In this document: in pieces, positions 36,316-38,905 of the stretch | Position numbering within the stretch: the first letter of the stretch is position 1 | Layout of the letters: each line of letters opens with the position of its first letter | Assembly: GCA_947458545.1 (NCBI GenBank) | Contig: CANGYH010000002.1 | Coordinates: 1 to 64,000, forward strand | From: Cytophagaceae bacterium | GTDB lineage: Bacteria; Bacteroidota; Bacteroidia; Cytophagales; Flexibacteraceae | Reading direction: 5' to 3' | DNA: 64,000 nucleotides | The notes under the pieces: generated by a model | What the model was told of the DNA's origin: nothing | The model's input: only the letters and a program-made list of their open reading frames with translations | Database searches by the model: none | Translations under genes and position numbers: made by a program

Positions 36316-36753
36316 ATGACACCCATCACTGCCTCAGACCAACCCTTTTTTGCCGAGACCCGTCGCCTGTTCGACTATGTCTCTGCCCACAACTTCGACG
36401 CCCTGGCCGCGCTATGCGACGATGACTTCGGCATCGTAGATCTGGGCCCCTCTGGCGAGAACATCATGATTCGCACCCGGGCCGAATGGGAAAACTGGTT
36501 CCGCACCCTCTTTGCCAAGCTGACCGAAATGCAGGCCACCACCGACACCGACATAACGGATTACAAGGCCTTGCAGATGGCTGACATGGGCTACTCTGTG
36601 GTGGAGTTCTGCCAAAACCTGCGCGTTGGCGGGCAGGTCGGTCGTTTTCAGTGCGTCACGACCATAATTTGGAAAAAAACAAGCCAAGGCTGGCAAGAGT
36701 CTCGCTGGCACGTTAGCCTGTTGAGCCAGAACTGGGAAGCAGAAGCAGCATAG
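36316..36753 (+). CDS. NTF2-like (SnoaL/DUF4440-type) protein
   Basis: A 145-residue cytoplasmic protein of the NTF2-like cone-shaped fold. The N-terminal helix with FDYVSAHNFDALAALCDDDFGIVD and the closing strands FQCVTTIIWKK and WQESRWHVSLL are typical of SnoaL/DUF4440 proteins. These bind small molecules or act as isomerases, and the specific role here is unknown. It lies 211 bases before the rhodopsin gene and is separated from it by an AT-rich promoter region. Confidence 0.8.
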   Translation: MTPITASDQPFFAETRRLFDYVSAHNFDALAALCDDDFGIVDLGPSGENIMIRTRAEWENWFRTLFAKLTEMQATTDTDITDYKALQMADMGYSVVEFCQNLRVGGQVGRFQCVTTIIWKKTSQGWQESRWHVSLLSQNWEAEAA

Positions 36754-36964
36754 TGAGCGCCCCGGCAATAAAAAATTTTACGGGGCGCTACCTGCACAAA
36801 AGATAATTTTGAAAAAACATAAAATTAAGAATAGCAATAAAACATATAAACTAAATAAGAATTTATACTTATTTATCGCCTAATTCTAAGAAAAATGGCT
36901 TAAGTCTTAAACAATTCATTGTCTTTAACTATTATTGCTGTGTCACCTTTAACCAGTTCACAAC
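36754..36964 (+). promoter_or_regulatory. AT-rich promoter region of the rhodopsin gene
   Basis: Some 200 bases much richer in A+T than the surrounding sequence, especially 36800-36930. They contain runs such as AAAAAACATAAAATTAAG and TATTATTG (36930-36937), which could serve as a -7 box. No gene is visible. The composition suggests a strong or regulated promoter. Confidence 0.5.
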
Positions 36965-37714
36965 ATGACGCTTCTCTCAAGTACACTTCAGGCCGGAGAC
37001 TACATCGGCTTCACCTTCTTCACCGGCTACATGTCCATGTTGGCCGCGTCCATCTTTTTCTTCGTCGAGCGCGGCCAAGTGCTCGATAAATGGAAAACTT
37101 CGCTCACCGTCTCTGGCCTTATCACGTTCATCGCTGCCGTACACTACTTCTACATGCGCGGTGTCTGGCTAGAGGAGCATGTGTCTCCCACCCAGTTCCG
37201 CTACATAGACTGGACACTGACCGTACCCCTGATGTGTATCGAGTACTACCTCATCCTGCGCCCCGTAAAGGCCAGCTCAGGTATGCTCTGGCGCTTGCTG
37301 GCGGGCTCTGTGCTGATGCTGGTAACCGGCTACCTCGGCGAGGCCGTACAGCCTGAGCGCAACGTGTTCTGGGGCGTAGTCTCTACCCTCGGTTGGGCCG
37401 TCATCATCTACGAAATCTACTTCGGCGAGGCCGCCAAAAAGGCTGCCACCAGCACCATGCCATCTGTGCAGCGCGGCTATGCCGTAATGCGCTGGTTTAC
37501 TCTGGTGGGCTGGGCCATTTACCCCATCGGCTACATGATGCTGCCAGGCAACCTGCTCAGCGGCCTGGTAGAGGGTGTAGATCTGTCAAAGTCTTCTCCC
37601 GTAGATCTGGCCTACAACATTGCCGACGCCATCAACAAAATCGGCTTCGGCCTGGTGGTGTACAGCATCGCCAAAGGCGCTACAGAAGAGGAGCGCGGCA
37701 TGGCCAACGCCTAA
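36965..37714 (+). CDS. Proteorhodopsin-type light-driven proton pump
   Basis: A 249-residue seven-helix retinal protein expected to pump protons outwards in light. The retinal lysine is K225 in helix G (ADAINKIGFG). Helix C carries the DTE set of proton pumps: acceptor D82, T86 and donor E93, with R79 before them. H60 matches the histidine that interacts with the acceptor in proteorhodopsins. M90 occupies the colour-tuning site, predicting green absorption as in other Bacteroidota. G137 in helix E aligns with F152 of green proteorhodopsin, leaving room for a carotenoid antenna as in xanthorhodopsin. No retinal-synthesis gene (blh) is in the window. A strong terminator follows. Confidence 0.96.
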   Translation: MTLLSSTLQAGDYIGFTFFTGYMSMLAASIFFFVERGQVLDKWKTSLTVSGLITFIAAVHYFYMRGVWLEEHVSPTQFRYIDWTLTVPLMCIEYYLILRPVKASSGMLWRLLAGSVLMLVTGYLGEAVQPERNVFWGVVSTLGWAVIIYEIYFGEAAKKAATSTMPSVQRGYAVMRWFTLVGWAIYPIGYMMLPGNLLSGLVEGVDLSKSSPVDLAYNIADAINKIGFGLVVYSIAKGATEEERGMANA

Positions 37715-37757
37715 GCCAAACGGCCAAACGCTCTCTACGAGAGCGCCATCATTTAGC

Positions 37758-37792
37758 ACAAAGAGCCCAGGCCAAAGGTCTGGGCTCTTTGT
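37758..37792 (+). terminator. Intrinsic terminator of the rhodopsin gene
   Basis: ACAAAGAGCCCAG and CTGGGCTCTTTGT are exact complements (13 base pairs) around a nine-base loop, so the rhodopsin is transcribed as a single gene. Confidence 0.9.
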
Positions 37793-37849
37793 ATTACAGG
37801 CGTATCGGCATTAAGTATGTAGGCAACAGCCGACCTTTGCCTCCTGACT

Positions 37850-38905
37850 GTGAAGCCCAAAATCCTCTACCTCTCCGTCAACGACGGCTCAGATACACGC
37901 ATCAACAAAGAGGTGCGCACCCAGGCCACCCAGGCCGATGTTATCTACTGCGGCATCGGCCAATCGGCCGAGCGGGCTTTTGTGCGCGGGCATTGCGCCG
38001 AGTTCTACCTGGTGCAGGGCGCACATAACAACCCGTTGGTGCTGTTGCGATACCTGCTGCTGGTGGCGCGGGTCTTTTGGCGTCATCGCTACCACAGCAT
38101 CCACATCATAAACGAGAACCTGCTGCTGCTCACGCTGCCGATCCTGGCATTTACGCGGAGCCGCATCGTGGTAGATGTGTTCGACAGTATCTTTTTGCGG
38201 CTAGGGCAGCAAGGCATTTACAAGGCCCTGCAGCGGTTTTGCTACCGCATCCCCGCAGCTGTAATCGTGACAGACGATAACCGACGAGACCTGCTGCCCG
38301 CCGGCTACGAGGACAAGACCTTCGTCGTAGAGAACTACCCTTACCCCGTAACCGAGCGCTTTGCCAAGGCGGCCGGCCCGGGAGAGCTCATAGTCTTCTA
38401 CAACGGCAGCATGAGCAACGTCCGCGGTACAGAACTGCTGGCGGGAATGTTGGCCGTAGCCCCAGGGCTACGCGTCTGGATGGCAGGTTGGATTTACGAT
38501 GAGCCCACCCGCCGCCTGGCTGAGCATCCGCAGGTGCAGAATTTCGGCGTCGTCAGCCAGCAAGAGAGCCTGCGGCTGGCCGCCCAGGCCGACTATATCC
38601 TGTCCGTTTACGAGCCCGTAAATGCCAACAACATCAACGCCAGCCCCAACAAAATTTACGATGCCATCCAGGCTCGTACGCCCGTCATCATCAACGGCGA
38701 GGTGCTGGTGAGCGCCTGGGTGCGCCAGCACCGCCTGGGCTACGTGATGGAGAGCTTCTACCAGCGCAATTACGCAGAGCTCTTTGCCGACTGGCTCGCG
38801 CAAAAAGAGGGCTACACTTTCTCTGACGCGCTGGCCCAGGCCCATACCTGGCCCGCCATAGAAGGTAAGCTACTTGCAGCCCACAAGCTGAATGCCCTTG
38901 CCTAA
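37850..38905 (+). CDS. Glycosyltransferase, GT-B fold
   Basis: A 351-residue GT-B-type glycosyltransferase. The N-terminus (KPKILYLSVNDGSDTRINKEV) and the middle segment (FYNGSMSNVRGTELLAGML) fit GT4-like enzymes. The donor-site region reads SVYEPVNANNINASPNKIYDAI, in which an E with spaced polar residues replaces the usual E-x7-E. It starts with GTG at 37850, ten bases after a GACCTTTG promoter-like box. It probably builds a surface glycan. There are no partner genes on the same strand. Confidence 0.82.
   Translation: MKPKILYLSVNDGSDTRINKEVRTQATQADVIYCGIGQSAERAFVRGHCAEFYLVQGAHNNPLVLLRYLLLVARVFWRHRYHSIHIINENLLLLTLPILAFTRSRIVVDVFDSIFLRLGQQGIYKALQRFCYRIPAAVIVTDDNRRDLLPAGYEDKTFVVENYPYPVTERFAKAAGPGELIVFYNGSMSNVRGTELLAGMLAVAPGLRVWMAGWIYDEPTRRLAEHPQVQNFGVVSQQESLRLAAQADYILSVYEPVNANNINASPNKIYDAIQARTPVIINGEVLVSAWVRQHRLGYVMESFYQRNYAELFADWLAQKEGYTFSDALAQAHTWPAIEGKLLAAHKLNALA

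Follow-up and report, generated by a model that had tools for sequence, protein, structure and literature searches.

The open reading frame at 36965–37714 of the window, which is the whole 64,000-nucleotide stretch of Cytophagaceae bacterium DNA that was analysed, encodes a rhodopsin. It raises the question of whether this protein is a plain light-driven pump or one that also collects light through a bound carotenoid, and, if the latter, which carotenoid the cell supplies. According to PMC12308411, the natural pairing of rhodopsins with carotenoids is poorly understood.

The gene is a single open frame on the + strand, from an ATG at 36965 to a TAA at 37714, and encodes 249 amino acids that match PF01036 at 4.2e-40 (138 bits, cut-off 24.6). 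It is the sole match to this family, in a search at E ≤ 0.001, in the genome to which the window belongs (3,233,599 bases in 9 contigs, 99.73% complete). The retinal lysine, a D-T-E motif in helix C and a methionine at proteorhodopsin site 105 place the protein in the Bacteroidota subgroup of the proteorhodopsins.

An alignment of 83 rows was built from the window's protein, two PDB chains and 80 kept relatives of at least 563 found. Four residues are the same in all 83 rows: D82 (37208–37210; this and all other residue coordinates are on the + strand), the proton acceptor and Schiff-base counterion, equivalent to D94 of Kin4B8; T86 of the DTE motif (37220–37222); E93, the proton donor (37241–37243); and K225, the retinal-binding lysine (37637–37639). 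M90 (37232–37234), at the green/blue tuning site, is methionine in 82 of the 83 rows, and the green absorption predicted from it presumably holds, as it fits the family. The first-pass annotation had given these five residues and G137 at exactly these positions, an agreement far beyond chance, and its proposal of an outward proton pump with an open antenna window draws support from the motif, from kinship and from the solved rhodopsin NM-R1. By these sequence features the protein would be an ordinary bacterial light-driven outward proton pump carrying retinal at K225.

Among solved chains, 9jov (7.1e-69) and 9jou (7.7e-69) matched best, at 235 bits versus 198 for the next, 4jq6 (1.3e-57), which was followed by other green and blue proteorhodopsins. 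Xanthorhodopsin (3ddl) was far behind at 1.5e-24 and 90 bits, which sets the protein outside the xanthorhodopsin family. An AlphaFold2 model made from 30 aligned sequences had a mean pLDDT of 86.2 and a pTM of 0.84 and was consistent with seven helices, with helix F in two pieces. The model is weak at the antenna site – mean pLDDT 72 for residues 181–190 and 65 for residues 191–200 – so the geometry of the antenna floor is not settled by it. Two rhodopsins of the same Bacteroidota type, with 63 and 65% identity, come from contigs that bear the names Candidatus Caenarcanales and Bacteriovoracaceae (L037 and L038), either through horizontal transfer or because the contigs are misbinned.

The predicted carotenoid site is centred on G137 (37373–37375), equivalent to G156 of xanthorhodopsin and G153 of Kin4B8, which is glycine in 82 of the 83 rows; the lone exception is the PDB chain 4jq6, with tryptophan. 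As had been proposed, this glycine lies opposite F152 of green proteorhodopsin: a phenylalanine is found there, its number reached by counting on from D97. Two further site residues were followed in a set of 70 rows, made up of the window's protein, 50 of 80 named relatives and 19 of 23 rows with DTE and M from a sample of the phylum (four repeats dropped). T141 (37385–37387; T160 in xanthorhodopsin, T157 in Kin4B8) is threonine in 57 of the 70, and Y190 (37532–37534; Y207 in xanthorhodopsin, Y204 in Kin4B8) is tyrosine in every one. As a control for the alignment to xanthorhodopsin and Kin4B8, the published residue letters were recovered at their numbers. Seven chromophore-pocket residues are described as common to the Gloeobacter and Salinibacter rhodopsins (PMC3587595). 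Five of the seven are kept here – G137, T141, L180 (xanthorhodopsin L197), I188 (I205) and Y190 – while N191 and M211 of xanthorhodopsin are replaced by V174 and P194. According to PMC12308411, every known carotenoid binder conserves the tyrosine at Kin4B8 position 204.

Comparison with solved or characterised carotenoid binders shows shared features and differences in each case. NM-R1, whose host we take to be Nonlabens marinus, is the nearest solved relative by sequence, and its entry 9jou is titled as zeaxanthin-bound. It shares the DTE motif, the methionine at the tuning site, the window glycine and a Y-M pair at the helix-F contact, but helix F reads Y-M-A-G-T-P-G-W in NM-R1 and Y-M-M-L-P-G-N here. 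The fold alignment to 9jou gave a Z of 30.5 and an rmsd of 1.4 over 230 residues with 51% identity. Five other entries, none titled as carotenoid-bound, tied with it within 1 Z (9r21, 9r23, 8cqd, 9r22 and the green proteorhodopsin 7b03, Z 30.1), so it is sequence kinship and not fold that singles out NM-R1, and the fold by itself is no evidence for an antenna. The literature search found no paper naming 9jou or 9jov, and NM-R1 was absent among the matches listed. KR1 of Dokdonia eikasta, a flavobacterial proteorhodopsin and likewise of the Bacteroidota, is reported to bind the 3-hydroxy xanthophylls zeaxanthin and lutein, and also astaxanthin with energy transfer, while canthaxanthin is given there as not bound (PMC12308411); it differs in having T and D at two helix-F anchor places (Table 2 of that paper) where P and G stand here. 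Xanthorhodopsin of Salinibacter ruber (3ddl) and Gloeobacter rhodopsin (6nwd) share the five pocket residues but belong to the other rhodopsin family (E of 1.5e-24 for 3ddl versus 7e-69 for 9jov), as does Kin4B8 (8i2z), which shares the equivalents of G153, T157 and Y204.

The first-pass annotation took the glycine as the sign of an open antenna window. The residue does map to the window of xanthorhodopsin and Kin4B8, but it is no special mark of this protein. A sample of 395 genomes of the phylum, including the window's own, contained 61 with a rhodopsin; 68 loci were taken from 70 matches, leaving out the window's own gene and one weak match (7.2e-4), and 66 of these were aligned at helix E (L114 and L140 were left out). 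At the place of G137 at least 59 of the 66 have glycine and five have phenylalanine (L111, L166, L170, L171 and L174); the remaining two, L137 and L149, have glycine on rereading. The glycine occurs alike in proton-pump, xanthorhodopsin-like and NDQ (Na+ pump type) rhodopsins, and is present in 80 of 80 kept relatives and in all 70 rows with DTE and M. One NDQ-type pump is reported to bind salinixanthin (PMC10026069). Since glycine is the rule in the phylum, by itself it says little about the window's rhodopsin.

This gives some weight to the reading in which the protein is a green proteorhodopsin with no antenna in the cell, the glycine being inherited within the Bacteroidota rhodopsins and the window holding lipid. 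A residue so widespread, NDQ types included, is not tuned to this protein, and P194 and G195 occupy the places of the polar anchors in helix F. Against it, two flavobacterial proteorhodopsins bind carotenoids – NM-R1, going by the title of 9jou and with the same glycine, and KR1 – and T141, Y190 and the genes for xanthophylls are all in place. On balance a pump without an antenna seems unlikely here. The protein is probably a Bacteroidota-type proteorhodopsin that combines an outward proton pump with a carotenoid antenna, a reading in which pumping, binding, energy transfer and the identity of the pigment are drawn from the motif, the glycine window, the kinship to NM-R1 and the gene set. A carotenoid antenna is likely, yet antennas of this sort are already known for Bacteroidota proteorhodopsins. 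In such a pump, retinal bound at K225 would drive protons outward, and a carotenoid ring would lie against the retinal through the window between helices E and F at G137 and pass it the energy of blue-green light.

At the floor of the site this rhodopsin departs from Kin4B8 and KR1, which bind hydroxylated carotenoids. In Kin4B8, S208 and Y209 of helix F hold the 3-hydroxyl of the pigment, and the S208A change leaves 2% of zeaxanthin binding; the anchor places hold T/D in KR1, M/A in xanthorhodopsin and M/L in Gloeobacter rhodopsin (PMC12308411). NM-R1 has T and then P at these places. The window's rhodopsin has P194 and G195 (37544–37549), and thus lacks the polar pair of the subgroup that binds 3-hydroxy xanthophylls, Kin4B8 and KR1, in which it is therefore not placed. 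Among the 70 rows the first place is P in 52 and T in 12, and the second is G in 55. With these residues at the anchor places, a 3-hydroxyl would be held otherwise than in KR1 or Kin4B8, possibly by hydrophobic contacts as in xanthorhodopsin or by N196.

Genes for retinal and for xanthophylls are present in the genome by homology, several of them under NCBIfam cut-offs. One cluster at about 1430–1435 kb of contig C1 contains ispH (343.8 bits, cut-off 276), a CrtYcd-type lycopene cyclase (domain 93.1, cut-off 39.4), crtB and crtI (361.7 bits, cut-off 238.1). The crtB gene is named by its PF00494 domain and its place beside crtI, because its best NCBIfam match, HpnD, is under cut-off. Just upstream on the same strand is a gene for an ECF-type sigma factor (L086:10687–11235), which perhaps switches the cluster in response to light or oxidative stress. 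Retinal formation is represented by blh at 84 kb of contig C6 (109.6 bits, cut-off 95.25). A crtD gene at C1:705 kb matches NF042421 at 523.9 bits (cut-off 500), while two of the three NCBIfam models that list it fall under cut-off. A CruF-type protein matches PF04240 at 95.8 bits (cut-off 25), with all three NCBIfam CruF models under cut-off. Its gene lies with a crtZ homologue and a CarH-like regulator at C1:600–602 kb (L104:6102–8392). The regulator is of the MerR type with a B12-binding domain (7.6e-29, under NCBIfam cut-off), and light may control the late steps of carotenoid synthesis through B12.

The two genes that bear most on the pigment are a ketolase and a hydroxylase. CrtW is the best NCBIfam match of a gene at C1:676 kb, at 219.8 bits and under the cut-off of 350. 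This is one of four FA_desaturase genes (five matches) in the genome. Two others (L106 and L107) were rejected as CrtW since their best matches are DesA-family desaturases, under cut-off; the fourth is at C1:1092 kb (L109). In plasmid records CrtW had four matches of 25–44% identity; three of these carry the annotation fatty acid desaturase, and the fourth has none. CrtZ was first inferred to be absent from a PF04116 search, which matched one fatty-acid-hydroxylase-like protein and one protein with a weak OlsE match. This was overturned by a 155-amino-acid CrtZ-like frame near cruF (L104:7010–7477) and by tblastn. The frame is missed by every Pfam model at E up to 1 and by every NCBIfam model at E up to 0.001, so family searches would report crtZ absent from this genome. 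It is 38–42% identical to plasmid genes among the 15 of 109 tblastn matches listed, one of which (Pantoea vagans, 38.6%) adjoins crtB, phytoene desaturase and crtY. Hence the search for crtZ and other xanthophyll genes that the first-pass annotation had called for turned up homologues of both CrtZ and CrtW, and a lack of hydroxylated carotenoids, which would have told against an antenna, is not what the genes indicate.

Such a gene set would presumably allow a flexixanthin-like carotenoid, with a 3-hydroxy-4-keto ring and an open 1'-hydroxy-3',4'-didehydro end; should the cyclase form both rings, we assume an astaxanthin-like one as well. A rhodopsin system and astaxanthin genes are reported for the relative Aquirufa (PMC10821818). 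Xanthorhodopsin and Gloeobacter rhodopsin both use 4-keto pigments (PMC12308411). Lutein and zeaxanthin, which had been suggested as antennas, fit this rhodopsin less well: a 3-hydroxy-4-keto carotenoid is what the genes suggest, and where Kin4B8 anchors the 3-hydroxyl this protein has proline and glycine. Our tentative candidate for the native antenna, which would come from the cell's own crtZ/crtW route, is such a 3-hydroxy-4-keto carotenoid, flexixanthin- or astaxanthin-like; we place it ahead of lutein or zeaxanthin while giving it a little under an even chance. Zeaxanthin, lutein or another plain 3-hydroxy xanthophyll takes a distinctly smaller part of the probability assigned to an antenna. 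In favour of such a pigment are the CrtZ homologue in the genome, the binding of zeaxanthin by NM-R1 and KR1, and the rank of pigments of this kind as the best antennas in Kin4B8 (PMC12308411), but the CrtW, CruF-type and CrtD homologues point to a hydroxy-keto and perhaps monocyclic end product, and P and G stand at the S208 and Y209 places. Energy transfer in Kin4B8 is about 50% for zeaxanthin and about 20% for astaxanthin, 4.5-fold under zeaxanthin for canthaxanthin, and none for salinixanthin (PMC12308411). Astaxanthin carries the ring predicted here, so the efficiency of the predicted pigment as an antenna is not a given. The points against the antenna and its proposed pigment include the P194/G195 floor, V174 in place of xanthorhodopsin N191, the poor transfer from 4-keto pigments in Kin4B8 and the lack of canthaxanthin binding reported for KR1.

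The rhodopsin gene stands apart from these pathways. Its scanned neighbours are a SnoaL-like gene upstream and, downstream, a frame without a Pfam match followed by hemF- and tsaD-type genes; no carotenoid gene was found among them. The downstream frame (37850–38905, 351 amino acids) is glycosyltransferase-like by eye. Two inverted repeats, read by eye, flank the rhodopsin gene, which may for this reason be transcribed alone. The upstream one, at 36756–36789, has 9-base arms and a 16-base A+T-rich middle and is perhaps the terminator of the preceding SnoaL-like gene; the other, at 37759–37791, has 12-base arms and a 9-base loop and is perhaps the rhodopsin gene's own. A pattern scan of 36700–37900 that accepts loops of 3–8 bases only found no terminator-like site, neither repeat included. 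No Bacteroidota-type promoter pattern precedes the gene (3 in the window versus 2.2 expected by chance), and one sigma-70-type site is on the + strand at 36908–36935 (3 in the stretch versus 1.2 expected). The rhodopsin had no match in phage records and eight in plasmid records, all under 35% identity. That the gene lies apart from blh and the crt genes might suit a light sensor in place of a pump, but the full DTE motif, the 249-amino-acid frame in which no further domain was found and the kinship with solved proton pumps make a sensor very improbable.

One residue next to the floor tracks the ketolase. N196 (37550–37552), the sixth residue past the antenna tyrosine, tends to occur where the genome has a CrtW gene: 33 of the 38 rows with N have one, versus 3 of the 32 others. 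CrtW was counted as absent where its match was weaker than 1e-40 (L041, L045 and L076, for instance), and completeness is not given for the named genomes. The association has a Fisher p of 3.6e-11 with kinship ignored and was the best of 554 column-letter tests over the 70 rows. In the 50 named genomes alone, 31 rows have N, 28 of them with CrtW, and none of the 19 others has it, with only matches under 1e-40 counted. Columns 148, 193, 197, 144, 107 and 133 also track CrtW with p under 1e-8, a sign of how strong an association kinship can produce by itself.

On a tree, which is of the rhodopsins and not of the species, N changes 5 times and CrtW 7 times. Of three supported independent pairs that differ in N (five if all branches are counted), 2.5 go the same way and none the opposite way (p 0.25 at best). 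Six supported pairs differ in CrtW: 2.5 go the same way, none runs opposite and 3.5 show no difference (median p 0.5). N196 was third of 525 features in the tree-aware ranking, and the pattern was first noticed on the same data. In one supported clade Fibrella and Fibrivirga have N and CrtW, while two Spirosoma strains and a MAG have G and no CrtW, and a Hymenobacter MAG (N, CrtW) falls inside the PGGW group on an unstarred branch. Exceptions go both ways, N without CrtW in L032, L038, L076, L118 and L132, and G with CrtW in L134, L141 and L147. The latter three (genomes G220, G318 and G204) also have T at the floor site. CrtZ is found in 59 of the 70 genomes of the rows. A pairing of the threonine floor with CrtZ (12 of 12 T rows versus 47 of 58 others, Fisher p 0.19) was dropped, as was one with CrtW (3 of 12 versus 33 of 58, p 0.06).

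The pairing of N196 with CrtW is a lead from sequence comparison, and no proof. It would be a bold extension, and a doubtful one, to make the 196 place part of a pigment-selectivity switch in Bacteroidota proteorhodopsins, with Asn going with CrtW-made 4-keto or 3-hydroxy-4-keto antennas and Gly with plain hydroxy xanthophylls. If this were true, the sequence of a rhodopsin could reveal its native antenna.

The group to which the window's rhodopsin belongs comes from contigs with such labels as Runella, Arcicella, Bernardetiaceae and Thermoflexibacter. Its genomes mostly have homologues of both CrtZ and CrtW, and its Pro-Gly floor is unlike those of the five rhodopsins in Table 2 of PMC12308411. 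The window's rhodopsin is a reasonable subject for finding out which pigment pumps of this group use, and N196 offers a hypothesis that comes down to a single residue.
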